A stretch of DNA of 14,116 nucleotides from Sphingobium sp. (GTDB lineage Bacteria; Pseudomonadota; Alphaproteobacteria; Sphingomonadales; Sphingomonadaceae), in the NCBI GenBank assembly GCA_020051025.1, contig JAGVJS010000079.1, positions 1-14,116 on the forward strand, given 5' to 3'. Below are positions 184 through 14,116 of the stretch, piece after piece (within the stretch, counting starts at the first letter, position 1; every line of letters begins with the position of its first letter). The position numbers and the translations under genes were made by a program. The notes under the pieces are model-generated. The model was not told the origin of the DNA. It did not search any database and saw only the letters and a list, made by a program, of their open reading frames with translations.

Positions 184-1095
184 TTATGCTTTGTCGATCG
201 CCCGATAGGCCGCGATCAGCCGATCTTCGCCTTCGCGACCGGCGATCGAATTGCCATGTTCCATGCCGATCACGCCGCCATAATTACGGCTGCGCAGCCA
301 GCGGACGATATTGGCATAGTTGATCTCGCCCGTGCCCGGTTCCTTGCGGCCCGGATTGTCGCCGAACTGGATATAGCCGATTTCCGCCCAGCAGGCGTCG
401 AGCGTCGGGATGATGTTCCCGGACTGAATCTGTTCGTGATAGACATCCGCCAATATCTTGACGCCGGGGCTGTTCGCGCCGCGCGCGACGGCATAACCCT
501 GCGCGATCGATTGCATGTAGACGCCCGGATGATTGGTGCGGGTGTTGAGCGGCTCCATCACCAGCGCCAGGCCATGGGGTGCGACGATATCTCCGGCACG
601 GCGCATGCAGTCGATGATGCGGCCGGTCTGGATATCCTGCGGCACCTTGCGGTCCATGAAGCCGGTGACGACGGTCGCATGTTTCGCATTGAGCCGCTTG
701 GCGACCTCCACCGACGAGCGGACATCGGCGAGGAAGGCTTCGCGTTCAGCATCGTCATTCGCGCCCAGCAACGGGCGGAAGTCGGCCCATTTGGGCATGG
801 AGGCGACGAACACGCCCATGGTCATGCCGTACCGGGCCAATGCCCTGGCCATTGCTTCCTGCTGTGCGACCGGGCGGGCGCGGGCTTCATTGTCTTCCCA
901 TGCCGTGAAACCCTGATCGGCGGCATAGGCGATCTGTTCGAGCAAACCGCCACGGCTGGCGAAGCTGCCTTCATGCGGGGCATAGGCGAGCGAGAAACGG
1001 GCGGCGTTGGAACTGCCCTTTCCAACTGCGGCGATGGCGGGTGCTGCGGCGGTTGCCAGCCCGGCGGCAATCATAGCGCGGCGAGACAGGGTCAT
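184..1095 (-). CDS. Tat-exported hydroxypyruvate-isomerase-like TIM-barrel sugar isomerase
   Basis: This 303-residue protein starts with a twin-arginine signal (SRRAMIA at residues 4-10, hydrophobic run to about 22, AxA-type cleavage), so it is probably folded with its metal before export to the periplasm. The rest is a xylose-isomerase-like TIM barrel (AP endonuclease 2 superfamily). The block NPGRKEPGTGEINY (247-260) is characteristic of the hydroxypyruvate isomerase (Hyi) branch. Metal ligands appear intact: E181 (VMEPLN), D217 (ILADVYHE), Q243 (YIQFGD) and E279 (GMEHGN), with spacing that matches the Glu-Asp-Gln-Glu set of E. coli Hyi. Its ATG overlaps the MFS stop as ATGA, suggesting translational coupling. 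True hydroxypyruvate isomerase activity is unlikely for an exported protein; a keto-sugar isomerase or hydratase in the 3-keto-glycoside route fits better. The family call is firm and the substrate is inferred. Confidence 0.88.
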   Translation of the reverse strand: MTLSRRAMIAAGLATAAAPAIAAVGKGSSNAARFSLAYAPHEGSFASRGGLLEQIAYAADQGFTAWEDNEARARPVAQQEAMARALARYGMTMGVFVASMPKWADFRPLLGANDDAEREAFLADVRSSVEVAKRLNAKHATVVTGFMDRKVPQDIQTGRIIDCMRRAGDIVAPHGLALVMEPLNTRTNHPGVYMQSIAQGYAVARGANSPGVKILADVYHEQIQSGNIIPTLDACWAEIGYIQFGDNPGRKEPGTGEINYANIVRWLRSRNYGGVIGMEHGNSIAGREGEDRLIAAYRAIDKA

Positions 1096-2381
1096 GCGCG
1101 CGTTCCCCGACGACCGGCGCGTCGTTCCGCCAGCCAGATCCCGCCGAAGACGACCAGCAGGGCGATCGGTACGAAGGTCAGGCGGGCGAAGGATTGCGAG
1201 GCGGCGGCATCTTCCACGGCACGCAACGCTTCGCCGGTCAGGCGGGTGAAGGCTTCGGGTCCGCCGGCGATTTCCACTTTCGCCCGGTCGAACATCTCGC
1301 CCAGTTGCGGCAGAACGAAGAAGCTGGCGAGCGCGCCTGCCGATCCGACCAGACCCAGCGCCCAGCTGTCTCCACGCGGATAGCGTTCCGCGACCGAGGC
1401 GAGCATGGTCGGCCACATGGCGCAAACGCCCAGGCCCCAGACGGTCGAGGCGAGGATGGCGGACACGGGCGATTGCGCCTGCGACAGCAGGAACAGGCCG
1501 ATCGCCGCGAGCAGGCTGGACACCCAGAGCAGACCGGGATTGGACAGGCGCCCGGCGATCTTCCCCGCAAAATGGCGGAAGACGAACATCAGCGCGCTGA
1601 CATAGACCAGCAGCAGGATGCCGCGCATGCCCACGCGATTGGTGAGCGCGACGTCGATCCACTGGCCCGGCGCCAGTTCGGACGAGGCGGTCAGGAACAT
1701 CGCGCCGAACCAGATGAAGAAGCTGGGGCGGCGGAACACTTCCAGCATCATGTCCTTCATCGCCCGGCTGCCCGCCGTGGCGGGCGGCGCGGGGAAGCTG
1801 GTGGTCGCAGCGATTGCGATGACGCCGACGGCGGGAAGATAGGCCAGGCCCATGATCGCCTGCCACGGCAGGGCGGAGGCGAGGAAGACACCCGCAAGGC
1901 CGCCGACGATCAGCCCGCCGGGATACCAGGCATGGAGGACGTTCAGGCGGTGGGTGGTGTCTTCGGGATAGAGGCGGGCGGTGAGCGGATTGATCGACGC
2001 TTCGGCAAAGCCCCAGCCAATGCCGGAGAGCAGCATGCCGAACCAGACCAGATGATAGACGGTCATGCCGGTCGCCATGCTGCCCGCGCCCACGATCAGC
2101 GTCGTGCCGATCAGGAAGGCGACGCCGCAACCGATGAGGACGCGGCGGATGCCGAGCGTATCGAGGAAGGCGCTGACCACAAAGACGGTGATCGAAAAGC
2201 CGAGAAAGGCGGAGCCGAGCGCCGCGCCGATCATTTCCCCCGCCGCGATCGGCGCGATCGGGTCGATCCATTCCGCCTTCAGGCTACTGGCGATCGCCGC
2301 ACGCAATGCCGCACTCATCGAAGCAGTGAAGAGCGCCAATACACTCAGCCAAAACAGCCTCTGCCGGTTGATAACCGTCAT
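1092..2381 (-). CDS. MFS transporter, probable sugar or sugar-derivative permease
   Basis: The 429-residue product is almost entirely hydrophobic helices, consistent with about 12 membrane spans (for example residues 9-30, 45-75, 80-105 and the last near 400-420), which fits the Major Facilitator Superfamily. A loop motif after the second span (FLDTLGIRRVLIGCG) resembles MFS motif A, and the C-terminus is short and basic (ERRAGRRGTRA). The start is supported by AGGAGAG a few bases upstream on the minus strand. It sits 65 bp behind the cytosolic TIM-barrel gene, and its stop overlaps the start of the Tat-exported isomerase. The likely role is inner-membrane uptake of the monosaccharide or keto-sugar produced in the periplasm by the DUF1080 and isomerase proteins. 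The sequence alone does not show the substrate. Confidence 0.85.
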   Translation of the reverse strand: MTVINRQRLFWLSVLALFTASMSAALRAAIASSLKAEWIDPIAPIAAGEMIGAALGSAFLGFSITVFVVSAFLDTLGIRRVLIGCGVAFLIGTTLIVGAGSMATGMTVYHLVWFGMLLSGIGWGFAEASINPLTARLYPEDTTHRLNVLHAWYPGGLIVGGLAGVFLASALPWQAIMGLAYLPAVGVIAIAATTSFPAPPATAGSRAMKDMMLEVFRRPSFFIWFGAMFLTASSELAPGQWIDVALTNRVGMRGILLLVYVSALMFVFRHFAGKIAGRLSNPGLLWVSSLLAAIGLFLLSQAQSPVSAILASTVWGLGVCAMWPTMLASVAERYPRGDSWALGLVGSAGALASFFVLPQLGEMFDRAKVEIAGGPEAFTRLTGEALRAVEDAAASQSFARLTFVPIALLVVFGGIWLAERRAGRRGTRA

Positions 2382-2403
2382 CCCGCTCTCTCCTACCCTG
2401 TTG

Positions 2404-2429
2404 TCCCGGCTGGTCCTTTTATGCCGGGA
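2404..2429. other. Inverted repeat in the gap between the TIM-barrel gene and the MFS gene
   Basis: The 65-bp gap 2382-2446 is the only real break inside the leftward operon. It holds a perfect 7-bp inverted repeat, TCCCGGC and GCCGGGA, around a 12-base loop. Neither side is followed by a T tract, so it is not a clear terminator. It could lower read-through or stabilise an mRNA end, giving different levels of the two operon halves. Confidence 0.3.
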
Positions 2430-2446
2430 TCATATCCTGATTGCTG

Positions 2447-3508
2447 TCAGGCGAGGCCCAGCCAGCGCCTGTTGTTAGCGGGATCGCCGCCGCCAGCAAA
2501 ATCATCGAACGCCCGCTCCGGCCGGCGGATCATATGCGCCTCGATAAAGGGCGCGCCTTCGCGCGCGCCATCCTCGGGATGCTTCAGGCAGCATTCCCAT
2601 TCCAGCACGGCCCAGCCATCATAGCCATATTGAGTGAGGCGGGAGAAAATGCCGGTGAAATCCACCTGCCCGTCGCCCAGCGAACGGAAGCGGCCGGGCC
2701 GATCCACCCAGTCGGCATAACCGCCATAGACGCCGGCCTTGCCGGTAGGATTAAACTCCGCGTCCTTCACATGGAACATCTTGATGCGGTCATGATAGAT
2801 GTCGATGAACTGGAGATAGTCCATCGCCTGCAACACGAAATGGCTCGGATCATAGAGGATGTTGGCGCGGCTATGGCCACCGACTGCATCCAGAAACCGT
2901 TCGAAGGTCAGGCCGTCGTGCAAGTCCTCACCCGGATGCAGTTCGTAGCAGAGATCCACGCCCTCTTCCTCGAACGCGTCCAAGATCGGACGCCAGCGCC
3001 GCCCCAGTTCTGCAAACGCCTCTTCGACCAGCCCCGCGGGCCGCTGCGGCCAGGGATAGATGAAAGGCCATGCGAAAGCACCGGAGAAGGTCGCGTGCGC
3101 CTTCAGCCCCAGTCGCCGGCTGGCCTTCGCAGCCAGCTTCAGCTGATCGACCGCCCATGCCTGTCGTTCGGCCGGCTTGCCACGCAATTGCGGCGGCGCG
3201 AAATTGTCGAAGGCCGCGTCATAGGCCGGGTGGACCGCGACCAGCTGCCCCTGCAAATGGGTCGACAATTCGGAAATCTCAACGCCGGCTTCGCGGCAAC
3301 GCCCCGCCAGTTCGTCACAATAATCCTGACTATCGGCCGCCAGCGCCAGATCCATGCAGCGCGCATCGTTGCTGGGCACCTGAATGCCCTTATAGCCCGC
3401 AGCTGCCATCCAGCGCGCGGCATTATCCAGCGTGTCGAAGGGTGCCGCATCGCCCATGAACTGGGCGAGGAAGATGGCGGGGCCGCGCATACTGTTTTCC
3501 AGGGTCAT
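2447..3508 (-). CDS. Cytosolic sugar phosphate isomerase/epimerase (metal TIM barrel)
   Basis: The 353-residue protein lacks a signal peptide and belongs to the xylose-isomerase-like TIM-barrel (AP endonuclease 2) superfamily that also contains IolE and tagatose/psicose epimerases. Four metal ligands are visible at barrel strand ends: E189 (CYELHPGED), D220 (LYDPSHF), H246 (MFHVKDAEF) and E303 (VLEWECCLKHPEDG). This subgroup is often encoded next to Gfo/Idh dehydrogenases, as here. Its ATG overlaps the cytochrome c stop as ATGA (3505-3508), so the two are probably coupled. An in-frame ATG six codons downstream is a possible alternative start. The likely reaction is epimerisation, isomerisation or dehydration/hydration of a keto-sugar supplied by the dehydrogenase encoded divergently. 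The family call is firm; the substrate cannot be read from the sequence. Confidence 0.87.
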   Translation of the reverse strand: MTLENSMRGPAIFLAQFMGDAAPFDTLDNAARWMAAAGYKGIQVPSNDARCMDLALAADSQDYCDELAGRCREAGVEISELSTHLQGQLVAVHPAYDAAFDNFAPPQLRGKPAERQAWAVDQLKLAAKASRRLGLKAHATFSGAFAWPFIYPWPQRPAGLVEEAFAELGRRWRPILDAFEEEGVDLCYELHPGEDLHDGLTFERFLDAVGGHSRANILYDPSHFVLQAMDYLQFIDIYHDRIKMFHVKDAEFNPTGKAGVYGGYADWVDRPGRFRSLGDGQVDFTGIFSRLTQYGYDGWAVLEWECCLKHPEDGAREGAPFIEAHMIRRPERAFDDFAGGGDPANNRRWLGLA

Positions 3509-3873
3509 TTCAGGCTCTTCAGATAAGTGATGATCGCAGCGCGCTTGGCCGGATCGGGCGTACCGATCGGCATACGGGTGCCGGGCACCTTCTTCATAGG
3601 CGCCGCCAGAAACGCGTCGAGGCTCTGATCGTCCCAGCGCAGTTTCGACGCCTTGAGCGCGGCCGAATAATTGAAGCCGGGCAGCGACGCCGCCGGGCGG
3701 CCGGCAACACCGTTCAGATTGGGACCAATGCCGCTTTTGCCATCCTTTTGGACATTATGGCAGGCGCGGCAGGCGCCAAAAGCTGCGGGAGGCGTCTGGG
3801 CACTCGCCGATATAGAGATTGTTGCTGCAATGCCCGCGATAAGTATCAGACTGAGGTTGGCTACCCTGCACAT
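3505..3873 (-). CDS. Periplasmic class I cytochrome c (mono-haem)
   Basis: The 122-residue product begins with a signal peptide (MCRVANLSLILIAGIAATIS, then ASAQ). The mature domain has a haem-binding CRACH motif (CxxCH) near its start and KKVPGTRMPIG supplying the methionine ligand, followed by the C-terminal helix KRAAIITYLKSLK, as in small cytochromes c related to c2/c552. I chose the ATG at 3873 because GGAG lies 8 bases upstream and the signal peptide starts there; an in-frame ATG at 3909 lies inside the operator palindrome and lacks a ribosome site. It is the first gene of the leftward operon. The likely role is electron acceptor for a periplasmic sugar dehydrogenase (for example a GMC-type glucoside 3-dehydrogenase), which is not in this window and is therefore inferred. 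Confidence 0.88.
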   Translation of the reverse strand: MCRVANLSLILIAGIAATISISASAQTPPAAFGACRACHNVQKDGKSGIGPNLNGVAGRPAASLPGFNYSAALKASKLRWDDQSLDAFLAAPMKKVPGTRMPIGTPDPAKRAAIITYLKSLK

Positions 3874-3879
3874 CCTCGA

Positions 3880-3885
3880 CTCTCC
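3880..3885 (-). promoter_or_regulatory. Ribosome binding site that decides the cytochrome c start
   Basis: On the minus strand GGAGAG lies 6-8 bases before the ATG at 3873, while no such site precedes the upstream in-frame ATG at 3909. Confidence 0.6.
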
Positions 3886-3907
3886 ATTTTGTTTATTCTT
3901 GCTATTC

Positions 3908-3921
3908 ATTTACCGGTAAAT
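3908..3921. promoter_or_regulatory. LacI-family-type operator palindrome in a divergent promoter region
   Basis: ATTTACCGGTAAAT is a perfect 14-bp palindrome with a central CCGG core, the form typical of LacI/GntR(E. coli)-class operators. It sits in the 112-bp region between the leftward operon start (3873) and the rightward Gfo/Idh start (3986), so one site could control both. On the minus strand two TTGATC copies (3929-3934 and 3935-3940) could serve as a -35 element, which would place the palindrome across the spacer and -10. No LacI-family gene is in the window; the regulator must lie elsewhere. Confidence 0.6.
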
Positions 3922-3928
3922 CATGTGA

Positions 3929-3940
3929 GATCAAGATCAA
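3929..3940 (-). promoter_or_regulatory. Candidate -35 region of the leftward operon (tandem TTGATC)
   Basis: GATCAA occurs twice in tandem, so the minus strand reads TTGATCTTGATC. Either copy resembles a -35 hexamer, and a weak -10 (TAAATG) follows the nearer copy at 16 bp, overlapping the palindrome. The promoter placement is a guess from composition. Confidence 0.3.
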
Positions 3941-3973
3941 GAATGGTTGCGCTACCTGTGCGCTGGCAGAAAG

Positions 3974-3979
3974 AGGAGG
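3974..3979 (+). promoter_or_regulatory. Ribosome binding site that decides the Gfo/Idh start
   Basis: A strong AGGAGG lies 6 bases before the ATG at 3986, supporting that start over the in-frame ATG at 3947, which has no such site and would add 13 basic residues before the dinucleotide fold. Confidence 0.7.
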
Positions 3980-3985
3980 AGAGAG

Positions 3986-5134
3986 ATGACAGAACGAGCT
4001 TTGCGCCTGGCGATGGTGGGTGGTGGAGAGGGGGCTTTCATCGGCGCCATCCACCGCGCGGCCGCTGCGCTGGATGGCGACTGGCAACTGGTGGCAGGCG
4101 CTTTCAGCAGCGATCCCGAACGCAATCGACGGTCGGGTACGGCGTTGGGAATCGCCGAATCGCGCATCTATGATAGCCTCGACCTGTTGCTGGCGGCGGA
4201 GGCCGCGCTGCCCGCCGACCAGCGCGTCGACGCCATATCCATCGTGACCCCCAATCATCTGCACGCGCCCATGGCCATCGCCGCGCTCGATGCCGGGTTC
4301 CACGTCTTCTGCGAAAAACCGATGGCGCTCAGTTCGGCAGAGGCCCGGCTGATCGCGCAGGCAGCGGAGCGATCCGGCCGTCATTTCGGCCTCGCCTTCA
4401 CCTATAGCGGCTACCCGCTGGTGGAAGAGGCACGGGCTCGGGTGGCGCGCGGTGATTTCGGCAAGATCCGTCTGGTCCACGTCGAATATTCGCAGGGCTG
4501 GCTGAGCCAGCCGATCGACCGTGACGGGAACAAGCAGGCGGAATGGCGCACCGATCCCGCGCGGGCGGGCCTGGGCGGATGCCTGGGCGATATCGGCACC
4601 CATGCCTTCCATCTGGCCGAACATGTGTCGGGACTCGAAGTGCGCGCGCTGTGCGCCGACCTTACTACCCATGTCGAGGGTCGACGGCTGGACGACGATG
4701 TGGCCGTCCTGTTGCGCCTGGACGGCGGCGCGCGCGGGACATTGAAGGCCAGCCAGATTGCGGCGGGCGATGAAAATGGGCTGAAGCTGCGCATCCATGG
4801 CGAACATGGCGGGCTGGAATGGTCGCAGATGGAGCCGAATACGCTGACTCTGCGCTGGCTCGACCGGCCGGCGGAACTGGTGCGAGCGGGCGGTCCGGGC
4901 CTTGCGCCCTCCACGCTGCCACGGCTGCGCACGCCGGCCGGACACCCGGAAGGCTATATCGAAGCCTTCGCCAATCTCTACCGGCTTTTTGCCGCGCGTA
5001 TTCATGCCAATGCCGGCGATCCGGCTGACGGATTCCCGTCGATCGAGGCGGGGTTGCGAACCATGGCCTTTGTCGAGACCGTGATCGCCAATGCGGCATC
5101 CGACCAGAAATGGAGCGCCATCACGCACGGCTGA
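3986..5134 (+). CDS. Gfo/Idh/MocA family NAD(P)-dependent sugar dehydrogenase
   Basis: The 382-residue cytosolic protein has an N-terminal Rossmann fold, with the dinucleotide loop as LAMVGGGEGAFIG (8-20), then VTPNHLHAP (88-95) and the family signature CEKPMAL (109-115), in which K111 is the usual catalytic lysine. The C-terminal domain carries GDIGTHAFHLAEHV (201-214), giving the D202 and H206 pair typical of inositol- and glucose-oxidising members. It lacks a signal peptide, unlike the Tat-exported glycoside oxidoreductases of this family. It is transcribed alone and away from the leftward operon from a shared control region. The likely job is NAD(P)-linked oxidation of a sugar to its 3-keto form, or the reverse reduction of a 3-keto-sugar, in partnership with the TIM-barrel enzyme. 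The family is certain; substrate and direction are inferred. Confidence 0.9.
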   Translation: MTERALRLAMVGGGEGAFIGAIHRAAAALDGDWQLVAGAFSSDPERNRRSGTALGIAESRIYDSLDLLLAAEAALPADQRVDAISIVTPNHLHAPMAIAALDAGFHVFCEKPMALSSAEARLIAQAAERSGRHFGLAFTYSGYPLVEEARARVARGDFGKIRLVHVEYSQGWLSQPIDRDGNKQAEWRTDPARAGLGGCLGDIGTHAFHLAEHVSGLEVRALCADLTTHVEGRRLDDDVAVLLRLDGGARGTLKASQIAAGDENGLKLRIHGEHGGLEWSQMEPNTLTLRWLDRPAELVRAGGPGLAPSTLPRLRTPAGHPEGYIEAFANLYRLFAARIHANAGDPADGFPSIEAGLRTMAFVETVIANAASDQKWSAITHG

Positions 5135-5144
5135 GCATTTGAGC

Positions 5145-5175
5145 GGGCGCGATGATGGCTGCCATCATCGCGCCC
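5145..5175. terminator. Probable bidirectional terminator (perfect 15-bp inverted repeat)
   Basis: GGGCGCGATGATGGC at 5145-5159 is followed after one base by its exact reverse complement at 5161-5175. It lies between the convergent Gfo/Idh (stop at 5134) and ThuA (stop at 5165) genes and includes the last codons and stop of the ThuA gene. There is no T tract on either side, so termination is inferred from symmetry, position and GC content. Confidence 0.6.
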
Positions 5176-5929
5176 CTCGCCCGGTCGCCGTCCAATATAT
5201 GCCGCCCATCAGATGATCGAGATAGCGGGCATCCCGATACATTTCGCCGTCATGGCCAAGCGTGGTGACGAAGACGCGTCCGCCTTCATAACGGTGGTAC
5301 CAGGCGACAGGATGGTCGCGCCCCATCGGTTTCGCCACCTGGCCGGGCCAGATTTTGCTAGGGTCGTAGCTGTCTTCGTCAACATTCAGGACGGGGGCGA
5401 TGGCGATATTGAACGGATTCGACGTGGTGTAGAATTCGTCGCTCCATATCCAGCGATCAGGCAAGCAGTAGGTCGCGGGGAAGCCCGGATCCTGCACGGT
5501 GACCACGCCAGTCTGCAACATGGGATGGACGCCGACAGACCGGCCGACCAGTCGCTCGTACCACGGCCAGGCGCCCGATGGCATGATCGCGGCGCGATGG
5601 ACCACGATCGCATTGCCGCCCCTGCGCATATAATCCTCGAAATGCGCGCGCTGCGACGCGTTCAGTTGTTCGGCCGGCGCGTTCAGGAAGATGATCGCGG
5701 CATAGCGGCTGAGATCGCCATCGAAACTTTCCGGCCTGTTGCTCCAGTCGAAGGCGAAAGCATGAAGTTTGGCCAGTCGTTCCAGACTGTCGCGCGCGAT
5801 CGGGATATATTCATAATGATAGGTGCTGGGCGTCGCCAGCACGAGCAGCCTATATTGGCTGTCGGCCTGCGCAGCGGACGCGCCGGTCAGCAGCAGCAAG
5901 GCGATCAGCAGACGCCGCAGGATCGGCAT
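5165..5929 (-). CDS. Exported ThuA-domain protein (trehalose-utilisation-like, class I glutamine amidotransferase fold)
   Basis: The 254-residue protein has a clear signal peptide (MPILRRLLIALLLLTGASAA, then QAD) and a ThuA-like domain over the rest. Visible family features are LLVLATPSTYHY (28-39), the strand AAIIFLNAP (77-85), IVVHRAAI (108-115) with H111, WSDEFYTTSNP (162-172), and MGRDHPVAWYHRYEGGRVF (202-220) leading to TTLGHDGEMY with H225. ThuA works with the Gfo/Idh protein ThuB in rhizobial 3-keto-trehalose and maltitol metabolism, but its own reaction is not settled. The gene lies 79 bp downstream of the TonB receptor in the same direction and converges on the Gfo/Idh gene. An AGGAG lies 12 bases before the ATG, rather far. 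A periplasmic role on keto-sugars is an inference from neighbours. Confidence 0.85.
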   Translation of the reverse strand: MPILRRLLIALLLLTGASAAQADSQYRLLVLATPSTYHYEYIPIARDSLERLAKLHAFAFDWSNRPESFDGDLSRYAAIIFLNAPAEQLNASQRAHFEDYMRRGGNAIVVHRAAIMPSGAWPWYERLVGRSVGVHPMLQTGVVTVQDPGFPATYCLPDRWIWSDEFYTTSNPFNIAIAPVLNVDEDSYDPSKIWPGQVAKPMGRDHPVAWYHRYEGGRVFVTTLGHDGEMYRDARYLDHLMGGIYWTATGRGAR

Positions 5930-5958
5930 GATTCAGCCATACTCCTGAAAAAGAAGAT

Positions 5959-5982
5959 GTCCCGGCCGTACAGGACCGGGAC
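5959..5982 (-). terminator. Candidate terminator or attenuator after the TonB receptor gene
   Basis: In the 79-bp gap between receptor and ThuA genes, GTCCCGG and CCGGGAC form a 7-bp stem around a 10-base loop. On the minus strand it is followed by ATCTTCTTTTT, so a T-rich run begins a few bases after the stem. This could partly terminate receptor transcripts, leaving ThuA expressed at a lower level by read-through. Confidence 0.5.
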
Positions 5983-6008
5983 GAGTTTGGGGAGGCTTCA
6001 ATAAGAGG

Positions 6009-8984
6009 TCAGAAGTTGAAGCGGACACCCGCGCGATAGATGCGGCCCAGCGTGTCGTAGAGCGCCGGGTTGATATCCAGACCGGTGTTGGTCTGGGGCG
6101 AGGCGACCGGATCCTTGTCGAACAGATTGTCGACCTTGCCATAGATGGACAGATTGCCGCTGAACTTGAAGGTCGCGCCGATATCTACGTAGAAGGCGCC
6201 CTTCATCTTGTTACGGTCGATCGTCGGATGGTTTGCGGTCGATGCCGGGCAGGACGACTGGCAGACCACATATTGATTGCCGAACGTGCCATCGCTGAAC
6301 CAGCGTTCCTGCACCGTCAGGCTGAACCGGTCGCTGTCATAGGTTTGCACGGCGAGCCATTTCCAGTTTGGCGTCGCGCCATTGTTCGCGCCGGCCTGAT
6401 CAACCGGATCGACGCCGGCGATGCCGGCATTGACGATGAATTTCTGGATGTGGGTGCCCAGCGCACGGACCGTGAAGTTGCCCGGCAGACCCAGCGGCTG
6501 CTGCCACTGATAGCTGGCCTCGATATCGAAGCCGCTGGTTTTCCAGGACGCCAGATTGAACGGCTGGACATTGACGAAGTTGGTGCCCTGCGCGCCGTCC
6601 AGCTGGAATCCGCCGCAAAAGGTCTGATTGCCTTCAAAGCAGAAGCGCACGATCTGGTCGGCGGACAGGCTGGATACGACGCCGCTCAGCTTGATGTTGT
6701 AATAGTCGAACGACAGGCTGAGGCCCGGCAGCCATTCCGGCCGCGCCAGCACGACGCCCAGTTCGGTGTTTCGCGCGACTTCCGGGCGCAAATTGGGATT
6801 GCCGACAACATTCTGGAAGACCTGCACCGCCTGATTGCGGAACGGATCGTTGAAGTTGGGCAAGGTCGTGACCGTCGGCGCGGCGAAGAGTTCCGACAGG
6901 TTGGGCGCGCGCACGTCGCGTGAGGTGACAGCGCGCAGGCGCAGGCCGCTGAGCGGCGTATCCCAGGTGCCGCCAACCTTCCATGTCCACACCGTGCCAG
7001 AGGTGCTGTAATGGGTGCCGCGCCCGGCTGCGTTCAGATTGGCGCGACCGATGGACTGGCTGTCGAATATAGGCAGATCAACTTCCAGATAGCCTTCATA
7101 GACTTCATATTTGCCACGGCCATTCTTGTAGTTGCCGGCAGCCCAGTTGCTGCCCAGTTGGGCATTGAGCAAAGGGTCGGCCGGATAATCGGGGCTGTTG
7201 GGGCTGAGCGGCGACACGCCCGCGCCATAGGGATCGGCATTCACGCGGTAAAATTCACGGCGATATTCGCCGCCGAACGCGATCGACACCGGGCCGGCCC
7301 ACAGGTCGAAGGGGTTGCCCGAGAGGTTGAGGCTGGCGACGTCCTGGGTCAGCTTGGTATGCTGGAAAGGGCCATTTTCGTGCGGGGCGACATAAGCGAG
7401 CGCGGAAGCGGACGGCGCGAAATTGCCGAAGATGTTGATCGGCTGGCAGCCATTGGCGCGCGCCACCGGGTCGCGGCAGACGATCGCACCGTTAAGGGTT
7501 ATCGCATCGGTCGCAGCGACATAGCGGTTCTGCAACACGATATCGCGGACCCGAATGTCGGAAATGGTGATGCCATGCTCATAATAGGCATCGTAATTCC
7601 AGTCGGTGCCGCCCAGATCGAACTTGCCCTTCAATCCGCCGACGAAGCGATATTGTTTCCGGTCGGTATAGACTTGCGGATCGGGGAAGGAGGCATTGCT
7701 CGACCCGAAGCCGAAAGAGGTAATACCGGCGGTAGCGCAGGCATCGCGCACCGATTGCGGCAGATAGGGATTGGCGCACTGCACAGTCAGGCTGGCGCGG
7801 CCATAGCCGGGACTAGGCTGGTTATTGGTCTTTACCTGCGCCACATTGACCGTGACATAGGCTTCATTGTCCGGGGCAAAGTCGAAGCCGATCCGGCCAT
7901 AGCCGTTGATGCGCTCCAGCTTCGATTTGAGCGAAGCGCCCGACCCCGGAGCACCCGACAGATCGCCGCCTTCGCAGAAGCTGTTGCCGCGATAGCAGTT
8001 GGTGACGGCACCGGTGCCGGTGGGGACGCCGTTCGAGCCATAATTGAACTGATAGGGCGTGCCATCGGGAGCAAAAGCGATGCCCTGGAGCGGGCCATTG
8101 TTGATGAGGCCATAGCGCGCATATTGATAGGGTTGCGCATAGTCGCGATAATTGAACTGCGGCAGGCCGTTATTGGTCTGGCCAGTGTTCATCAGCGTGG
8201 TGGCGCGATACCAGTTGCGGCTACCGGCCAGATCCGTGCCGAAATCGCCCGCCCCAACGCCGCCTTCATGATCATATTCGCCGCTCAGCACGACATGCAG
8301 GCGATCGTCCATGAAGGATTTGCCATAGGCCGCCTGAACCAGTGCGGTTTCATCATCGCCATATTTGGTGATGCTGCCCAGCACATTGCCCTTGAACCCT
8401 TCGAAATGCGTGTCGGTGATGAAGTTGACGACACCGCCGACCGCGTCCGAACCGTAGGAAGCCGACGCGCCGCCGGTCACGACGTCCACGCGCTTCACCA
8501 GCAACTGCGGGAACATGCTGATGTCCGGCACGCCAGTCACGTTGGCGCCGACGACGCGCTGGCCATCGAGCAGGGTCAGGGTGCGGATCGGCTGGAGGCC
8601 GCGCAGAGAGAAGGAACTGAGGCCCTGCTGGCCGCTCGACGTGCTGAAGGTGCCGGTCGCCGCGCCGGTCGATCCCTGAAGCGAGGGCAATTGCGCAATG
8701 GTGTTGAAGATGTTGGGCTGCGCATTATTGGCGATCTGCTCTTCACCGATCACCGTGGTCGGTGTGGGCGCATTGAAGCCGCTGGTGGTGATGCGCGATC
8801 CGGTGACGACAATATCGGCGGCGCGGGGCGCGGCGGCATCGTCGGCCTGATCCTGCGGCGCGATGCTCTGGGCCTGTGGCGCGGACACGTTCTGGGCCTG
8901 CGCCATGCCGGCCAGCGCCATGGTCGCCACCGCCGCCAGGCTGACGCCGGCCAGTTGCCGATGGATTGCGATCGTCACTTTCAT
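6009..8984 (-). CDS. TonB-dependent outer-membrane receptor
   Basis: The 991-residue protein has a signal peptide (residues 1-30, ending AGMAQA), a TonB box (ADIVVTGSRI, 56-65), a plug domain (about 70-195) with SSFSLRGLQPIRTLTLLDGQ and VDVVTGGASASYGSDAVGG, and a long beta-barrel that ends RAGVRFNF with the terminal phenylalanine needed for barrel insertion. The start is supported by GGAAGG just upstream. It is typical of large sphingomonad/Caulobacter receptors for oligosaccharides and other bulky nutrients rather than a small siderophore receptor, though sequence alone does not prove this. Its promoter region carries the same 16-bp dyad as the GH55-like fusion gene upstream, so the two are probably co-regulated and the receptor likely imports that enzyme's substrate. 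No domain insertion or break is seen. Confidence 0.93.
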   Translation of the reverse strand: MKVTIAIHRQLAGVSLAAVATMALAGMAQAQNVSAPQAQSIAPQDQADDAAAPRAADIVVTGSRITTSGFNAPTPTTVIGEEQIANNAQPNIFNTIAQLPSLQGSTGAATGTFSTSSGQQGLSSFSLRGLQPIRTLTLLDGQRVVGANVTGVPDISMFPQLLVKRVDVVTGGASASYGSDAVGGVVNFITDTHFEGFKGNVLGSITKYGDDETALVQAAYGKSFMDDRLHVVLSGEYDHEGGVGAGDFGTDLAGSRNWYRATTLMNTGQTNNGLPQFNYRDYAQPYQYARYGLINNGPLQGIAFAPDGTPYQFNYGSNGVPTGTGAVTNCYRGNSFCEGGDLSGAPGSGASLKSKLERINGYGRIGFDFAPDNEAYVTVNVAQVKTNNQPSPGYGRASLTVQCANPYLPQSVRDACATAGITSFGFGSSNASFPDPQVYTDRKQYRFVGGLKGKFDLGGTDWNYDAYYEHGITISDIRVRDIVLQNRYVAATDAITLNGAIVCRDPVARANGCQPINIFGNFAPSASALAYVAPHENGPFQHTKLTQDVASLNLSGNPFDLWAGPVSIAFGGEYRREFYRVNADPYGAGVSPLSPNSPDYPADPLLNAQLGSNWAAGNYKNGRGKYEVYEGYLEVDLPIFDSQSIGRANLNAAGRGTHYSTSGTVWTWKVGGTWDTPLSGLRLRAVTSRDVRAPNLSELFAAPTVTTLPNFNDPFRNQAVQVFQNVVGNPNLRPEVARNTELGVVLARPEWLPGLSLSFDYYNIKLSGVVSSLSADQIVRFCFEGNQTFCGGFQLDGAQGTNFVNVQPFNLASWKTSGFDIEASYQWQQPLGLPGNFTVRALGTHIQKFIVNAGIAGVDPVDQAGANNGATPNWKWLAVQTYDSDRFSLTVQERWFSDGTFGNQYVVCQSSCPASTANHPTIDRNKMKGAFYVDIGATFKFSGNLSIYGKVDNLFDKDPVASPQTNTGLDINPALYDTLGRIYRAGVRFNF

Positions 8985-9083: not shown

Positions 9084-9099
9084 TAAGACATAGGTCGTA
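9084..9099. promoter_or_regulatory. Shared operator-like dyad, copy A (upstream of the TonB receptor)
   Basis: TAAGACATAGGTCGTA matches its own reverse complement at 12 of 16 positions, with GAC and GTC arms about a TA-containing centre. Including flanks, 19 of 21 positions (9080-9100) are identical to copy B at 12203-12223. It lies about 100 bp before the receptor ATG. It is the best candidate binding site for the GntR/FCD regulator encoded at 12858-13538. Confidence 0.6.
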
Positions 9100-9112
9100 G
9101 ATGCGGCCGCAA

Positions 9113-9128
9113 GCCCTGATTTCAGGGC
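9113..9128 (-). terminator. Short inverted repeat at the 3' end of the GH55-like fusion gene
   Basis: GCCCTGA and TCAGGGC pair across a 2-base centre, overlapping the stop codon of the fusion gene. There is no T tract, so it is a possible weak terminator only. Confidence 0.35.
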
Positions 9129-12100
9129 CTTGCCGCGTAGAGCGCGTGATGCGTCAGGATGAAGAGCGTCCGCCTGTCCGGTCCGCCAAACAGGATCTGC
9201 AAGGGGCGATCGGGCACATCAATGCGCCCCGTTTCCTTGCCGTCCGGGCCATAGACGAAGATCTGCCCGTTCGCGACATAGACACGGCCCTGACCATCGA
9301 CGGCAACGCTCTCGCCGCCGCGGTTGGCGAAGGGCTTGAGATCGGTCAGCGTGCCGCCCGCCCCCACGGTGCCGCTATAGGTCACATTCTCCGACCCGTT
9401 GGTGACGAACAGGCGTTCGCCCACCTTGCCGCCGACAAAGCCATTGGCGTTCAGACCGTCCGACCAGCGCCAGCCCGTATGGTCGATCGGCCCCTGCTGC
9501 CATGTGCGGAAGGCTGGCAAGGACAGGCTGCCGTCAGGCGACAGATATTCCTTCGCCTTGGGCGTGCCGACATCGCGCGCGAACATGTCGGCAAGCGTGG
9601 TGAAATCGTAGGTCTTGTGGTCGAGCTGGTCGCGAAATTCGCCATTATTCCACCAGTTGACCGGCAGCAGCGTCCTTGCCGACCCGCCGGTCCGCACCGG
9701 GGTCGGCTGGATCAGGGTCATCTGATCCTTCGGGCCGTCCGGGTCGATCGAATAGACGCCCCCCTTCGGCCCCAGCGAGGACAGAACAAGCAGGTGCCCC
9801 GATCCGTCGACCGCCAGATTGATGGCGTCGAGCGCATTGTCGCGCACGATTTCCAGCCCCTTGACCTGCGTCCAGCGATGGATGCGCTGGAAGCGGCGGT
9901 CGATGAAATAGAGTGCGCCTTTCGCATCCACCGCCGCGCCGGAGATCGACCAGAAACCGTCCTCCAGCTTTTCGACCCTGGCGCTGCTGGGCGGCGTGGC
10001 CGCGATCTTGCGGTCGGATGCGCCGATGTCGAGGCTGGCAAATTCGCGCTCGCGCACGAACAGCTTGCGGCTGACATCCTCGATCGCATTGTCGAACGGA
10101 TATTTGCTGGCTCGCAGGAAGGTGCCGCAGCCTTCATCGTCGCAGGTCGCATAGCCGCTTTCCGCATTGATATGCACGTTGCGGAAGCGGATGTCGCTGG
10201 AGTTAGTCAGCTTCACCGCGCTTTTTTCCGGCGCATAGGTGCGCGTGACCCGATAGCCATGATAGTTGGCGAACAGCAGATTGCTGGAATTGCGGATGTC
10301 GAGCGAGATGGCGTCGGGCCCGTCATCGACCTCCTGCTCGGTCTGCGGGGCAAGGAACTCCCAATTCTGCACATTGTCGAGGACGATCTCGTTACGGGCA
10401 TGATGTTCGACCGACATTTCATAGACATGGCCGGGCGTGCTGGTGTTGGTGATATGCAGGCCCGATTGCGCGAAACTGTTGGGACTCCACACGTCGGCGA
10501 AGGTGCCGCCGCCGCCATCCGTCACCCAGATGCTGGGATATTGCGCGTCGAGCCGCCCGTCCGTGACCGGATCGCCGGTATTGACCCGCAGCGCGCCCAG
10601 CATCTTGCCATCGGCGGTCGGCGTACCGCCGCCGCCCATGATCTTGACGTCCTCGACCAGACTTTTTTCGCCCGACCGCCACAGCAGGGCGGAAGCGCGC
10701 GGGTTGATGCGGCCGGTGAAGAGGCCGAGGCCCGACAGGATATTGTCGCCGCCTTTGGGACTTTCCAGGATCGGCAGCACGGATCCCAGGCCGGCATGGG
10801 CAGGATTGTCGTCGGGGATATAGAGCTGGGTGATAGCCGGATGCAGGCCGATCAGCACGCTGTCGGGGCGCAGGGTCAGCTTGTTCGTGACCTTGTAGAA
10901 TCCGGTCGGGAAATAGAGGATGCGATGACTGTCGATCGCCTTCTGGATTGCGACGGTATCGTCCGCCTTGCCATCCCCCATCGCGCCCAGCGTGCGGATA
11001 TTGACCCAGTCGCTCATAGGCGGCAGGTCGCGGATAGCCCCTTCGCGCCGGGCGGGCATGGCGGAGAGCGGCTGGATATCCGCTTGCGTCTTATATTCGC
11101 CGCTATGGCCGAGGTCAGGCACGGAAAGGCCATAGGAGAAGCTGGCGACCTTATAGGCCTTGCCCTTGCCGTCGATTGTCTTGCCGCTGTCGCGGAAACG
11201 GGCGAAGACGGGGCTGTTCTCGACAAGCGCATTATCGAAGCCGATCTGGGTAAAGACATTCTTCTCGTTCGAAATGACGATGCCGGCCTTCGATATATTT
11301 GCGAAGCGGACATCCTTGCCCCAGAGGCTGTCGCTATAGCCGCGGTCGATCTCTATCCCGACCGGCGTGTTGCGGATAGCGACGTTGACGAGCGTCAAGT
11401 CGACCTCATGCTCGCGAATGGCCGCGTCGCGCTGGCCGTCGAAGGTCGAATCCAGCAGGGTGAACTGCCAGGCGGGAGAGGTTTTTTCCGTGACGATGCC
11501 ATAGCGGCCGCCCTGAAAATGGACATTTTCGATGACATTGCCCGCCTGATAGACGCCGGCGAAGGCGGTGCCGAGCCGGAATTCCATATGGCTGAGGAAG
11601 GCATGCTGCGCCATGCGGAAACGCACGCCGGCAGCCGCCGGATTGCCCGCGCCGATCTCGATATCGACATTGCTCATCGAGGAATAGAAAGTGCCGGAAT
11701 TAGCGTCGCGGACGATCTTGTCGCGCGGCACCACGGTCGGCACCGGGACCGGCACCTGACCAACTTTATATTGGTCGCCGCCGGCGAAGATCACCATGGT
11801 CGACACGCCCTGCTGGAAGCCCGGCGTATTGGCGCCGAGCAGCAGGACGGGCCGGGTCGGCCCGACGCCATAGACACGCACGCCCGCCGGCACGATCAGC
11901 GATCGGGTGATGCGATAGGTGCCCGACGGCAGGAAGACGAGGCCATGGCCGGTCTTGTCACGGGCCTGATCCAGTGCCTGCTGAATCGCGGCACTGTCGT
12001 CCGCCTTACCGTCGCCCTTCGCCCTGACCGTCACCGCATGGGGTTCATCCGGGGCGACCGGGAAGACGGAAGGACCAGCGGCCCAGGCCGGCGCGCTGAG

Positions 12101-12145
12101 GGTCGTCGCCGCCAGTAACGCCGCGATCATGCTGCATCGGATCAT
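9122..12145 (-). CDS. Exported GH55-like double beta-helix protein fused to an SMP-30/gluconolactonase-type propeller
   Basis: The 1007-residue product has a signal peptide (MIRCSMIAALLAATTLSA, then PAWA). Two tandem pectate-lyase-superfamily beta-helix domains follow, each opened by the same signature: AKGDGKADDSAAIQQALD (42-59) and GAMGDGKADDTVAIQKAID (387-405). This doubled layout is that of GH55 exo-beta-1,3-glucanases. The second helix carries VEHH (E580) and, 23 residues on, QTEQE (E603), resembling the paired glutamates of GH55. From about 725 to 1007 lies a six-bladed propeller of the SMP-30/gluconolactonase type (ALYFIDRRFQRIHRW at 744-758, QILFGGPDRRTLFI at 983-996). The ATG at 12145 has GGAGAGG 5 bases upstream; the in-frame ATG at 12214 lies in the operator dyad. 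Likely role: periplasmic beta-glucan oligosaccharide cleavage linked to gluconate formation. Lactonase activity is doubtful, since the first metal glutamate appears replaced by S735. Confidence 0.85.
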   Translation of the reverse strand: MIRCSMIAALLAATTLSAPAWAAGPSVFPVAPDEPHAVTVRAKGDGKADDSAAIQQALDQARDKTGHGLVFLPSGTYRITRSLIVPAGVRVYGVGPTRPVLLLGANTPGFQQGVSTMVIFAGGDQYKVGQVPVPVPTVVPRDKIVRDANSGTFYSSMSNVDIEIGAGNPAAAGVRFRMAQHAFLSHMEFRLGTAFAGVYQAGNVIENVHFQGGRYGIVTEKTSPAWQFTLLDSTFDGQRDAAIREHEVDLTLVNVAIRNTPVGIEIDRGYSDSLWGKDVRFANISKAGIVISNEKNVFTQIGFDNALVENSPVFARFRDSGKTIDGKGKAYKVASFSYGLSVPDLGHSGEYKTQADIQPLSAMPARREGAIRDLPPMSDWVNIRTLGAMGDGKADDTVAIQKAIDSHRILYFPTGFYKVTNKLTLRPDSVLIGLHPAITQLYIPDDNPAHAGLGSVLPILESPKGGDNILSGLGLFTGRINPRASALLWRSGEKSLVEDVKIMGGGGTPTADGKMLGALRVNTGDPVTDGRLDAQYPSIWVTDGGGGTFADVWSPNSFAQSGLHITNTSTPGHVYEMSVEHHARNEIVLDNVQNWEFLAPQTEQEVDDGPDAISLDIRNSSNLLFANYHGYRVTRTYAPEKSAVKLTNSSDIRFRNVHINAESGYATCDDEGCGTFLRASKYPFDNAIEDVSRKLFVREREFASLDIGASDRKIAATPPSSARVEKLEDGFWSISGAAVDAKGALYFIDRRFQRIHRWTQVKGLEIVRDNALDAINLAVDGSGHLLVLSSLGPKGGVYSIDPDGPKDQMTLIQPTPVRTGGSARTLLPVNWWNNGEFRDQLDHKTYDFTTLADMFARDVGTPKAKEYLSPDGSLSLPAFRTWQQGPIDHTGWRWSDGLNANGFVGGKVGERLFVTNGSENVTYSGTVGAGGTLTDLKPFANRGGESVAVDGQGRVYVANGQIFVYGPDGKETGRIDVPDRPLQILFGGPDRRTLFILTHHALYAARP

Positions 12146-12150
12146 AGCCG

Positions 12151-12157
12151 CCTCTCC
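12151..12157 (-). promoter_or_regulatory. Ribosome binding site that decides the fusion gene start
   Basis: On the minus strand GGAGAGG lies 5 bases before the ATG at 12145 and directly upstream of a good signal peptide. The other in-frame ATGs at 12163 and 12214 have no such site. Confidence 0.7.
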
Positions 12158-12206
12158 ATTCATTGCGTTGCGTGCAGGGCTAGGAGGCGCGACAGGCTTT
12201 GGCACT

Positions 12207-12222
12207 TGCGACATAGGTCGTA
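12207..12222. promoter_or_regulatory. Shared operator-like dyad, copy B (between the fusion gene and gntK)
   Basis: TGCGACATAGGTCGTA matches its reverse complement at 12 of 16 positions; its inner ten bases are a GAC/GTC inverted repeat and the whole element nearly repeats copy A. It lies in the 211-bp divergent region 12146-12356, about 62 bp before the fusion gene ATG and 135 bp before the gntK ATG, so it could control both. Otherwise this region shows only an AT-rich TTTATA near 12244-12250 that might be a -10 for gntK. Confidence 0.6.
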
Positions 12223-12356: not shown

Positions 12357-12851
12357 ATGGCCATCATCGTCATGGGGGTGAGCGGCTGCGGCAAATCGAC
12401 GCTGGGGGCGTTGCTGGCCGAGGCGCTGGCCTGCCCCTTTCTGGAAGGAGACGATTTCCACGCGCGCGAAGCGGTGGCCAAGATGCGCGGCGGGAAGCCG
12501 TTGACGGATGAGGATCGCTGGCCCTGGCTCGACCGGTTGGGCGCGGCGACTGCGACAGCGAGCGAGACACATGGCGCGGCGGTCGCTGCCTGTTCCGCCT
12601 TGCGGGAAAGCTATCGCGACCGGCTGCGATCGGCGATCGGCAGCCAGTTGCGGTTCGTGCTGCTGGATACTGATCGGGAGACATTGCTGGCGCGCATCAG
12701 CAACCGGCCGGGCCATTATATGCCTGCGACTTTGCTGGACAGCCAGCTTGCGACGCTGGAGCGGCCCGCGCCCGACGCGCATATGATGATCCTGACCACT
12801 GACGCCCCACCGGACTTGCTGCGTGACCGGGTATTGAACTGGCTCGCCTGA
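12357..12851 (+). CDS. gntK: Gluconokinase (D-gluconate to 6-phosphogluconate)
   Basis: The 164-residue length is normal for the GntK family. It has a P-loop, GVSGCGKST (7-15), then GDDFH (31-35) and MRGGKPLTDEDRWPWL (43-58), the gluconate-binding and core region. These are followed by ACSALRESYRDRLR (78-91) and RPGHYMPATLLDSQLATLE (117-135), all strongly conserved in gluconokinases. It phosphorylates gluconate with ATP in the cytosol and feeds the Entner-Doudoroff pathway. The reading frame is open upstream to 12129, but the P-loop fold starts right at MAIIVMG; no clear ribosome site precedes 12357, so a start further up (for example near 12270) cannot be excluded. It is divergent from the fusion gene and converges on the GntR gene with only 6 bases between stops. 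Confidence 0.95.
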   Translation: MAIIVMGVSGCGKSTLGALLAEALACPFLEGDDFHAREAVAKMRGGKPLTDEDRWPWLDRLGAATATASETHGAAVAACSALRESYRDRLRSAIGSQLRFVLLDTDRETLLARISNRPGHYMPATLLDSQLATLERPAPDAHMMILTTDAPPDLLRDRVLNWLA

Positions 12852-12872
12852 CCCGTTTCAGGGCATCAGGCG
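12845..12872. terminator. Probable bidirectional terminator between gntK and the GntR gene
   Basis: CGCCTGACCC and GGG-CA-TCAGGCG form a stem of 10 pairs with a 2-base bulge and a 6-base loop, spanning both stop codons (gntK at 12849-12851, GntR at 12858-12860). No T tract follows on either strand. Confidence 0.55.
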
Positions 12873-13538
12873 ACGGCGGCCTTCCCATAAGTGCCAGCGC
12901 ATGGCGAGCGCCGCGCCTTCCGGATCCTGCGCACGGATGGCGGCGACGATCTGTTCATGTTCGCGCAGCATCGTGGCGATGACGTCGGGCGGGCGCGAAC
13001 GGCTGATATCGACGCCGGCGCGCATGATCTTGTCCACATCGCCATGCAGCGCGTCGAAAGCGATCAGGAAGGCCGGATTGCCGGTCGCCTCGGCAATGCG
13101 TCGGTGCAGTTCCATATCCTCGACATGGGCCGGTTCGCTGGACAGGAGCGCGGCGCGCAACATTTCCATGCCATCCTCGACATAAGCCATTTCCTGCACA
13201 GTCCGGCGGGTCGCGGCCAGACGCGCCGCCTCCGCCTCCAGCACGAAGCGCACTTCATAACTGCCAAGTGTCGTCGGCAGTTCAGTCGATGGCATGAACA
13301 TGGCAAGACGATCGGACGGGCGGCTCTTGACGAAGGAACCGGCGCCCCGCCGCGCCTCTGTAATGCCGTCCGATGCCAGCCGCATCAGCGCTTCGCGCAC
13401 GATCGCGCGGGACACGCCGAACATTTCCGCCAGCCGCGCCTCCGACGGCAGACGCGCGCCGACCTCCAGACCGTCCGACTTTATGATGTCGACGATCTGG
13501 GCATAGACATGGTCGGAAAGGCGCGCCTGGCTCATCAT
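12858..13538 (-). CDS. GntR-family transcriptional regulator, FadR/FCD subfamily
   Basis: The 226-residue protein has an N-terminal winged helix-turn-helix (about 5-72) with ARLPSEARLAEMFGVSRAIVREAL and the wing RRGAGSFV, both typical of GntR proteins. An all-helical FCD ligand domain follows (about 90-220). The metal/ligand residues of FCD proteins are visible: D141 and H145 (DMELHRRIAEATGNP), H194 (LREHEQI) and H216 (MRWHLWEG). Two adjacent ATGs (13538, 13535) are both possible starts. It follows the GntP permease gene by 14 bases, so they form an operon. Such regulators usually respond to a small organic or sugar acid; gluconate or 6-phosphogluconate is the likely effector here, and the two dyads at 9084 and 12207 are candidate operators. 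Both of the last points are inference. Confidence 0.92.
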   Translation of the reverse strand: MMSQARLSDHVYAQIVDIIKSDGLEVGARLPSEARLAEMFGVSRAIVREALMRLASDGITEARRGAGSFVKSRPSDRLAMFMPSTELPTTLGSYEVRFVLEAEAARLAATRRTVQEMAYVEDGMEMLRAALLSSEPAHVEDMELHRRIAEATGNPAFLIAFDALHGDVDKIMRAGVDISRSRPPDVIATMLREHEQIVAAIRAQDPEGAALAMRWHLWEGRRRLMP

Positions 13539-13552
13539 GATCCATCCCCTAG

Positions 13553-14116
13553 TTAGAAGAGGCTGCTCGCGACAAGCACCAATAGCAGACCGACGACCGC
13601 CACCACCGTTTCCATGATCGACCAGGTGCGGAAGGTGCCGGGCATGTCGGTGCCCAGATAGCTTTTCACCAGCCAGAAGCCCGGATCGTTGACATGGGAG
13701 AAGAAGAGCGAACCGGCGCCAATGGCAAGGACCATCCATTCCGGGTCCACGCCCGAGGCCGCAACCAGCCCCTGCATCACGCCGGCCGTGGTGATGGTCG
13801 CCACCGTGGCCGAACCCGTCGCCAGCCGGATGCAGACCGACACGCCCCAGGCGAGCAGGATCGGTGAAATCGCGCCGCCCTGGGCAATGCGCACCAGCAT
13901 GTCGGACAGGCCGGCCGTCACCAGCACCTGCTTGAGCGCGCCGCCCGCGCCGATCGCGAGGATGATGCCGCCGGCGGGCGTCATTGCTTCGGTCCAGATC
14001 GCATTCTGAACGGTGCGATCGGTGATGCGGCGGCCGAACAACAGGGGCAGCGCGACCAGCACGGCGACCAGCAACGCGACGACCGGATCGCTGACCCAGG
14101 CGAGCCAGTGGAAATG
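13553..14116 (-). CDS. GntP-family gluconate:H+ symporter (C-terminal 187 residues)
   Basis: The reading frame is open to the right edge, so the N-terminal half and start lie outside the window. The visible part has several membrane helices and GntP-family blocks: RLATGSATVATITTAGV, the intramembrane segment conserved in GntT/GntP, and the C-terminal SHVNDPGFWLVKSYLG followed by TWSIMETVVAVVGLLLVL. The family imports gluconate and related sugar acids with protons across the inner membrane. With gntK on the other side of the regulator, gluconate is the most likely substrate. It is first in a two-gene unit with the GntR regulator. Family members also take up idonate, fructuronate or glycerate, so the substrate rests on context. 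Confidence 0.92.
   Translation of the reverse strand, partial: HFHWLAWVSDPVVALLVAVLVALPLLFGRRITDRTVQNAIWTEAMTPAGGIILAIGAGGALKQVLVTAGLSDMLVRIAQGGAISPILLAWGVSVCIRLATGSATVATITTAGVMQGLVAASGVDPEWMVLAIGAGSLFFSHVNDPGFWLVKSYLGTDMPGTFRTWSIMETVVAVVGLLLVLVASSLF

Follow-up and report, generated by a model that had tools for sequence, protein, structure and literature searches.

A GH55-like double β-helix joined to an SMP-30-related propeller at a gluconate locus of Sphingobium

Two families of enzymes and one bacterial operon are the closest described systems to the protein considered here. Glycoside hydrolase family 55 (GH55) β-1,3-glucanases consist of two parallel β-helix domains with one cleft, and their catalytic residues are a general acid glutamate and a Glu-His pair (E502 and E480-H481 in SacteLam55A). 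Members of the SMP-30/gluconolactonase family are six-bladed propellers whose metal is held by Glu, Asn, (Asn) and Asp ligands. In Caulobacter crescentus, the aldose-aldose oxidoreductase is described as forming aldonolactones (PMC9795676), and its gene is placed in a putative operon with a gluconolactonase (PMC4628093). The window analysed here is a whole stretch of 14,116 nucleotides from Sphingobium sp. (contig JAGVJS010000079.1, assembly GCA_020051025.1). Its minus strand encodes a protein of 1007 residues (9122..12145), hereafter the fusion, in which a probable signal peptide, a GH55-like double β-helix and an SMP-30-related propeller follow one another. Support is good for the GH55-like anatomy, the catalytic pair and the linkage to gluconate genes, and lacking for lactonase activity of the propeller. 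In databases the family appears under the names 'glycosyl hydrolase family 28-related protein' and 'gluconolaconase', the latter also mentioned for an Acidobacterium in PMC11636273. No functional description of this fusion was found in the literature, which was searched in open-licence PubMed Central only, making the absence a weak one.

The explanation favoured here, tentatively and at somewhat less than even probability, is that the fusion is an exported GH55-like hydrolase which feeds periplasmic oxidation of the released sugar to gluconate, with a propeller devoid of the SMP-30 metal site. A TonB-dependent receptor would import an oligosaccharide, which would be hydrolysed in the cleft between the helices, with E603 as the general acid and with water activated by E580 together with Q180; the mechanism is probably inverting. 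An exported aldose oxidoreductase would then oxidise the freed aldose in the periplasm, and a separate SMP-30 gluconolactonase would open the resulting lactone. Gluconate would be taken up by GntP (or another carrier) and phosphorylated by gluconokinase, with fusion, gluconokinase and receptor switched together through a common palindrome. The fold, the residue equivalences and their conservation, the gene linkage, the common promoter element and the co-occurrence are computed results; hydrolysis, substrate, export, the sequence of steps, the regulator and the part played by the propeller are inferences. If the fusion does feed gluconate metabolism, a large family now uninformatively named would gain a function, and it could be predicted which sugar polymers are handled oxidatively in the periplasm of sphingomonads and Caulobacter.

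The open frame of the fusion gene spans 9122-12214 on the minus strand and gives 1030 residues from its first ATG. The ATG at 12145, which gives 1007, is backed by orthologue alignments, for example those from loci L005 and L006 covering residues 1-1007; these are two of the 73 fusion loci obtained when species genomes were scanned and the best 80 of the 108 relatives found were taken. Residues 1-23 (12077..12145, minus strand) are hydrophobic, end in AWA-A and read as a putative Sec signal peptide, through which export is probable; confidence in the predicted structure is low at residues 1-20. The motif GDGKADD occurs at residues 44-50 and 390-396, at the start of a first β-helix of about residues 37-362 (11060..12037) and a second of about residues 380-707 (10025..11008), both on the minus strand. 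Pfam places PF12708 on the fusion in two stretches (2.9e-36), and PF08450 at residues 915-999 (47.6 bits against a cut-off of 26.3, profile positions 151-245 only). The preliminary description of this DNA had proposed, without giving a strand, an exported polypeptide with two GDGKADD-opened helices and a propeller in one frame, and such a gene is what the minus strand contains. A stop-free frame of 1005 residues on the plus strand (9101-12118) overlaps it and differs from the protein described; such a frame most likely arises as the shadow of a GC-rich gene.

Kinship of the helices with GH55 is seen at the level of both fold and residues. The model of the fusion has the two-helix arrangement of GH55 with its single cleft, and hhalign aligns the helix part with fungal GH55 at a probability of 99.40. 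Since the same comparison gives 0.51 with reversed and 0.05 with shuffled columns, the match is not due to chance. In profile alignments, E580 (10406..10408, minus strand), which is followed by H581, corresponds to the glutamate of the water-activating relay (MnLam55A E591, SacteLam55A E480), and E603 (10337..10339, minus strand) to the general acid (MnLam55A E614, SacteLam55A E502). Glutamate occupies both positions in 32/32 rows of one alignment and 119/119 of a larger one, in keeping with the earlier suggestion that the two form a catalytic pair. As their GH55 equivalents do, E580 and E603 would share a cleft.

Other parts of the GH55 active site have been replaced. A tyrosine lies three residues past the acid in GH55 (Y505 in SacteLam55A); the matching position 606 holds V in 61, A in 48, G in 8, S in 1 and Y in 1 of the 119 rows. 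The GH55 proton relay (Thr/Glu-149, Gln-174, Ser-198, Glu-480) is not kept as a whole: Q180 of the first helix and E580 are retained in 119/119, the Thr/Glu position (150) is S 74, P 42 and Q 3, and the Ser position (201) is A 63 and V 56. Comparison with the GH55 aromatic block and subsite -1 (F152, W444, W446, D449) finds F153, also in the first helix, and W553 in all 119 rows. In the hhalign alignment neither the second Trp nor the Asp of subsite -1 finds a partner; the HMMER register to 8jhh instead pairs them with W540 (118/119) and D543 (D in 69/119). The acid/base pair is thus that of GH55, and the site recognising the terminal glucose appears changed. Because the tyrosine, the relay serine and the subsite -1 aspartate are not or poorly kept, the protein is called GH55-like and no β-1,3-glucan substrate is claimed. 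The same losses, with serine replaced by Ala or Val throughout and tyrosine gone in 117 rows, speak for a quite unlikely alternative: that the GH55 fold has been put to other chemistry on a non-glucan polymer (as a lyase, an epimerase-like enzyme or another glycosidase) or to binding, the gnt neighbours being part of a wider sugar-acid island. Some copies do stand in different contexts, the acidobacterial L075 near an arabinofuranosidase-domain protein and an esterase, and a copy at L062 near 3-keto-glycoside genes. This alternative has to contend with the retention of the acid/base pair and of the full two-domain GH55 arrangement, and with the strong gluconokinase linkage and common palindrome described below.

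The propeller occupies residues 717-1007 (9125..9997, minus strand). Its kinship with SMP-30 is one of sequence, resting on profile alignments and on the PF08450 match, above cut-off with partial profile coverage. When the isolated propeller was submitted to Foldseek, the first five matches were gluconolactonase or propeller-lactonase chains, and geometry alone fails to separate it from NHL or WD-type propellers. A propeller unrelated to SMP-30, the outcome that would have undone the preliminary description, is contradicted by the sequence matches, geometry alone being non-discriminating. The SMP-30 metal site itself is missing. The Glu ligand is absent in all 119 rows, where its site holds S 68, G 47 and A 4; an alternative register places I734 there, with I 28, L 3 and V 1 in 32 rows. 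The Asn site varies (Y 64, N 38, H 16, T 1), and the Asp site is E in 118 and D in 1. These positions rule out a canonical gluconolactonase, and the lactonase role first proposed for this module is not supported: the pathway has a separate SMP-30 protein with full ligand motifs, and a separate relative of lactone-forming oxidoreductases is also present.

Conservation in the propeller lies elsewhere. Residues 828-895 (9461..9664, minus strand; PVNWWNNGEFRDQLD ... WQQGPIDHTGWR) form a highly conserved stretch, and residues 827-838 fall in a gap when aligned to lactonases. N776 and E945 are each kept in 118/119 rows, and E836, N834, E919, R942 and N959 in at least 118/119. The most probable role of the propeller is to bind substrate or to shape the cleft. 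The bifunctional enzyme of the preliminary description, a hydrolase with an active lactonase, would need a rebuilt metal site, for instance at N776 and E945, which could bind a metal; the other residues conserved with them would suit it too, and a propeller lactonase joined to another enzyme has been described in the Cu/Zn superoxide dismutase (SOD) of Deinococcus radiodurans (PMC12362111). The bifunctional reading is nevertheless very unlikely in view of the loss of the Glu ligand in all 119 rows, the variable Asn site, and the presence of a separate SMP-30 protein with ligand motifs near the fusion in 17/73 loci and in the window's genome.

Proteins of this helix-propeller architecture make up an established family that recurs in Sphingomonas and Caulobacter and is rare in the wider class. 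At E <= 0.001, 4641 of 7997 scored database proteins match the fusion. Each of the matches listed (120 with the window's own) shows 77% identity or more and contains PF12708 as well as PF08450, and the named proteins at 88-94% identity are mostly from Sphingobium, with a few from Sphingomonas. The same domain order, which the preliminary description had left to be sought in other genomes, is found in 35/94 genomes of the genus (the window's included, one of them with a fragment only) and at the 73 loci, which come from sphingomonads, Caulobacter, Phenylobacterium, Duganella, Peristeroidobacter and Acidobacteria. Full-length copies occur in 2/385 genomes of the class, and the fusion is present in 3/398 of the phylum, the window's counted in both; four plasmid records carry it. 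A search for stand-alone helices in the 385 class genomes returned one full-length match beyond the window's gene and six short partial ones, and the propeller profile matched only the two genomes with a full-length helix match; at the thresholds used, the halves therefore occur together wherever either is strong.

Many loci have more than one copy. At least 46 of the 73 hold a second fusion gene, and a midpoint-rooted FastTree tree separates 60 sequences from another 59. The group of 59 has all 46 second copies and the five Acidobacteria, and one sequence is attached to it only weakly. In relatives such as L010 and L067 the second copy lies between the TonB receptor and a ThuA gene; in the window only about 80 bp (5929-6009) separate these genes, so it is absent from that place. 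The window's genome is a draft of 2.44 Mb in 433 contigs, 60.9% complete. Among the close homologues, one has the fungus Friedmanniomyces endolithicus as its recorded source and is probably bacterial contamination of the fungal assembly.

Genes for gluconate use often accompany the fusion, as counted over the 73 loci from tblastn matches with 40% identity or more and 60 bits or more. A TonB-dependent receptor (6009..8984, minus strand) is the next gene along the same strand and is found nearby in 60/73 loci. Divergent from the fusion is a gluconokinase of the GntK/IdnK type (12363..12851, plus strand; TIGR01313, 172.4 bits against a cut-off of 113.75), which has relatives in 61/73 loci and in 60 of the 67 with at least 2 kb of upstream sequence. 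It is followed by a GntR/FCD regulator (12858..13538, minus strand, start estimated at 13538 within a longer frame from 13739; 52/73 loci) and by a GntP gluconate permease (13553..14074, minus strand; 29/73 loci), cut near the contig end to its C-terminal part. The neighbours named in the preliminary description (gntK, a GntP permease and a TonB receptor) are thus all there, the permease in part. The link to gluconate genes reaches beyond the window's genome, and gluconokinase and receptor also have a promoter element in common with the fusion. Of the coupling once proposed between oligosaccharide release and gluconate production, a coupling of the locus to gluconate use is supported and a lactonase module is not.

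The two remaining enzymes of the favoured explanation are encoded near a minority of the fusions. A Gfo/Idh/MocA oxidoreductase, whose leader looks Tat-like from its sequence, occurs in 22/73 loci, a stand-alone SMP-30 protein with a leader in 17/73, and the two together in 16/73. In the window's genome the pair lies on another contig, C400 (878-1972 and 1975-2955), and its oxidoreductase matches the C. crescentus aldose-aldose oxidoreductase at 1.7e-150. The SMP-30 protein of locus L067 matches XC5397 (5.5e-36), and the ligand motifs are kept in the stand-alone family and in the C400 copy. Co-occurrence was counted over the 94 genus genomes with E <= 1e-60 for the oxidoreductase and the family cut-off for gluconokinase. 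Fusion and oxidoreductase are both present in 32, alone in 3 and 3, and both absent in 56 (Fisher 2.8e-18, which ignores kinship); for gluconokinase the figures are 33, 2 and 4, and 55 (1.4e-18, likewise). Among the 32 genomes with fusion and oxidoreductase, the two lie within 12 kb in 20, 34 kb to 3.3 Mb apart on one contig in 6 (contig coordinates), and on different contigs in 6, the window's genome being one of these. The six genomes in which both are kept at 34 kb to 3.3 Mb argue that their tie is more than one of map position.

Fusion, gluconokinase and TonB receptor look co-regulated through a common palindrome, TACGAC-N4-GTCGTA. One site with one mismatch lies in the promoter region between the divergent fusion and gluconokinase genes, some 60 bp upstream of where the fusion starts (12207..12222), and a second, also with one mismatch, between fusion and receptor, about 100 bp before the receptor start (9084..9099). 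Chance would give 0.15 sites in the window, and two were reached in 5/200 shuffles. With up to 2 mismatches the element precedes the fusion in 58/71 testable loci and the receptor in 46/59, and elsewhere in the 73 loci (1.23 Mb) there are 19 sites; three of these are perfect and lie just downstream of the fusion gene at loci where no TonB receptor was found. In nine Caulobacter loci the element before the receptor is TACGACCATGGTCGTA, a perfect palindrome. The 73 loci hold 123 sites in total (two half-sites, up to 2 mismatches) against 56 in reversed sequences. When up to 3 mismatches to the 16-mer are allowed, the loci give 82 sites, and a single Markov shuffle of each locus gives 1. Ten whole genomes carry 2 to 7 sites each at no more than 1 mismatch, of which the locus pair accounts for two in nine genomes and one in a Caulobacter genome. 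The palindrome read backwards is commoner than the palindrome itself in 9/10 genomes, so its placing, not its number, is the evidence. When 21 sequences were searched upstream of the fusion with two fixed GntR-type patterns, no site was found; as binder of the palindrome, the GntR/FCD protein encoded next door is the obvious candidate.

A scan of nine loci found the common palindrome before the TonB receptor and a different one before gntP. Upstream of gntP the sequence is AATCTGTCTAACAGATT in L005 and L006 and AACCTGTCCAACAGATT in five Novosphingobium loci (L026, L027, L030, L057 and L067), and at L057 it is visible from the oxidoreductase side too. It may be the site of a second regulator.

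Several observations weigh against the favoured explanation. In the loci examined, gntP and the oxidoreductase are preceded by another palindrome and not by TACGAC-N4-GTCGTA, so both genes may lie outside the fusion's regulon. The oxidoreductase is in the flank of 0/14 Caulobacter loci. An Asticcacaulis plasmid carries, in this order, LacI, TonB receptor, gluconokinase, fusion and gluconate symporter, the last four co-directional and the fusion 35 bp and 2 bp from its two neighbours; no oxidoreductase or lactonase is annotated in 21 kb of it, in PLSDB gene tables that are incomplete. In Duganella, gluconokinase, TonB receptor, GntP and fusion similarly stand in a row. Five acidobacterial loci, two with little flank, have none of these neighbours at the tblastn threshold; a GntR/FCD regulator is near the fusion at L075. 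Finally, the acid-orienting tyrosine is lost from nearly all copies, and the co-occurrence statistics are uncorrected for kinship.

The Asticcacaulis and Duganella rows, the Caulobacter gap and the separate gntP/oxidoreductase palindrome are reasons to consider that the fusion may itself deliver gluconate. The helix cleft would cut beside a gluconate or gluconolactone cap and the propeller would read the aldonate or lactone end, the substrates being, for instance, glycans whose reducing ends an oxidoreductase or other microbes have oxidised. This direct release is the main rival, if on the unlikely side. The co-directional Asticcacaulis set, with a similar row in Duganella, brings gluconate genes together without an annotated gluconate-making enzyme, the propeller is kin to lactone-hydrolysing enzymes, the wall of GH55 subsite -1 appears altered, and the C. 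crescentus relative of the oxidoreductase is reported to have been crystallised with maltotriose, so oligosaccharide ends may be oxidised. That the palindrome links fusion, gluconokinase and receptor only, and is not found before the oxidoreductase, counts slightly for direct release and against the favoured explanation. No residue-level sign of aldonate binding is seen in the propeller, however. In addition, among 20 hand-picked genomes from other genera, all fusion carriers and with no fusion-free comparison, an oxidoreductase relative (E <= 1e-60) is found in 17 and a membrane glucose dehydrogenase scoring over cut-off in 10, while one or both occur in 19, so that gluconate could be made from glucose. 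An unlikely but far-reaching form of direct release is a new aldonate-releasing glycoside hydrolase, with a GH55-derived helix reshaped for the cap and a metal-free, SMP-30-derived propeller recognising it, which together with the co-regulated TonB receptor and gluconokinase and with a gluconate symporter would make up a full uptake-and-use system for oxidised glycans. If true, it would mean bacterial uptake of oxidised oligosaccharides, such as the leftovers of oxidative polysaccharide-degrading enzymes.

Positions 184-5929 of the window encode two AP_endonuc_2 TIM-barrel proteins, an MFS permease, a cytochrome c, a ThuA protein and a Gfo/Idh/MocA oxidoreductase, for which levoglucosan dehydrogenase is the nearest NCBIfam model (116.6 bits against a cut-off of 650). 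At L062, orthologues of the TIM barrel and permease have a 3-keto-disaccharide hydrolase of PF06439 and a GMC oxidoreductase close by, and for this reason the window's genes may represent a 3-keto-glycoside route beside the gluconate locus. An esterase-like α/β hydrolase stands beside the fusion locus at L045 (6273-7211; nearest NCBIfam model pectin acetylesterase PaeX, below cut-off) and L052 (10924-11868), and a LacI regulator and an MFS carrier follow at many Caulobacter loci.

The fusion can finally be set against the systems named at the outset. With the GH55 β-1,3-glucanases (CtLam55 5m5z, PcLam55A 3eqn, MnLam55A 8jhh, SacteLam55A 4pew) it shares the two-helix arrangement, an equivalent Glu/His pair, the general acid and the invariant Gln. 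It differs from them by the change of Tyr to Val/Ala/Gly and of the relay Ser to Ala/Val, by a second Trp and a subsite -1 Asp left unpaired by hhalign, and by the extra C-terminal propeller. PF08450 is common to the fusion and the SMP-30/gluconolactonase family (XC5397 3dr2, 3e5z, the C. crescentus xylonolactonase 7plb and the D. radiodurans SOD propeller), within which the first five Foldseek matches of the isolated propeller also fall. The D. radiodurans Cu/Zn-SOD-propeller lactonase, as described in PMC12362111, likewise pairs an SMP-30-type propeller with an exported enzyme unrelated to it; its propeller retains Glu/Asn/Asn/Asp and Ca, whereas the window's does not. Relatives of both enzymes of the C. 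crescentus CC1225/CC1224 operon (PMC4628093) occur in 16/73 fusion loci and in the window's genome. The portion of that operon description consulted mentions no GH55-like protein, whereas in the genomes described above the pair co-occurs with the fusion.

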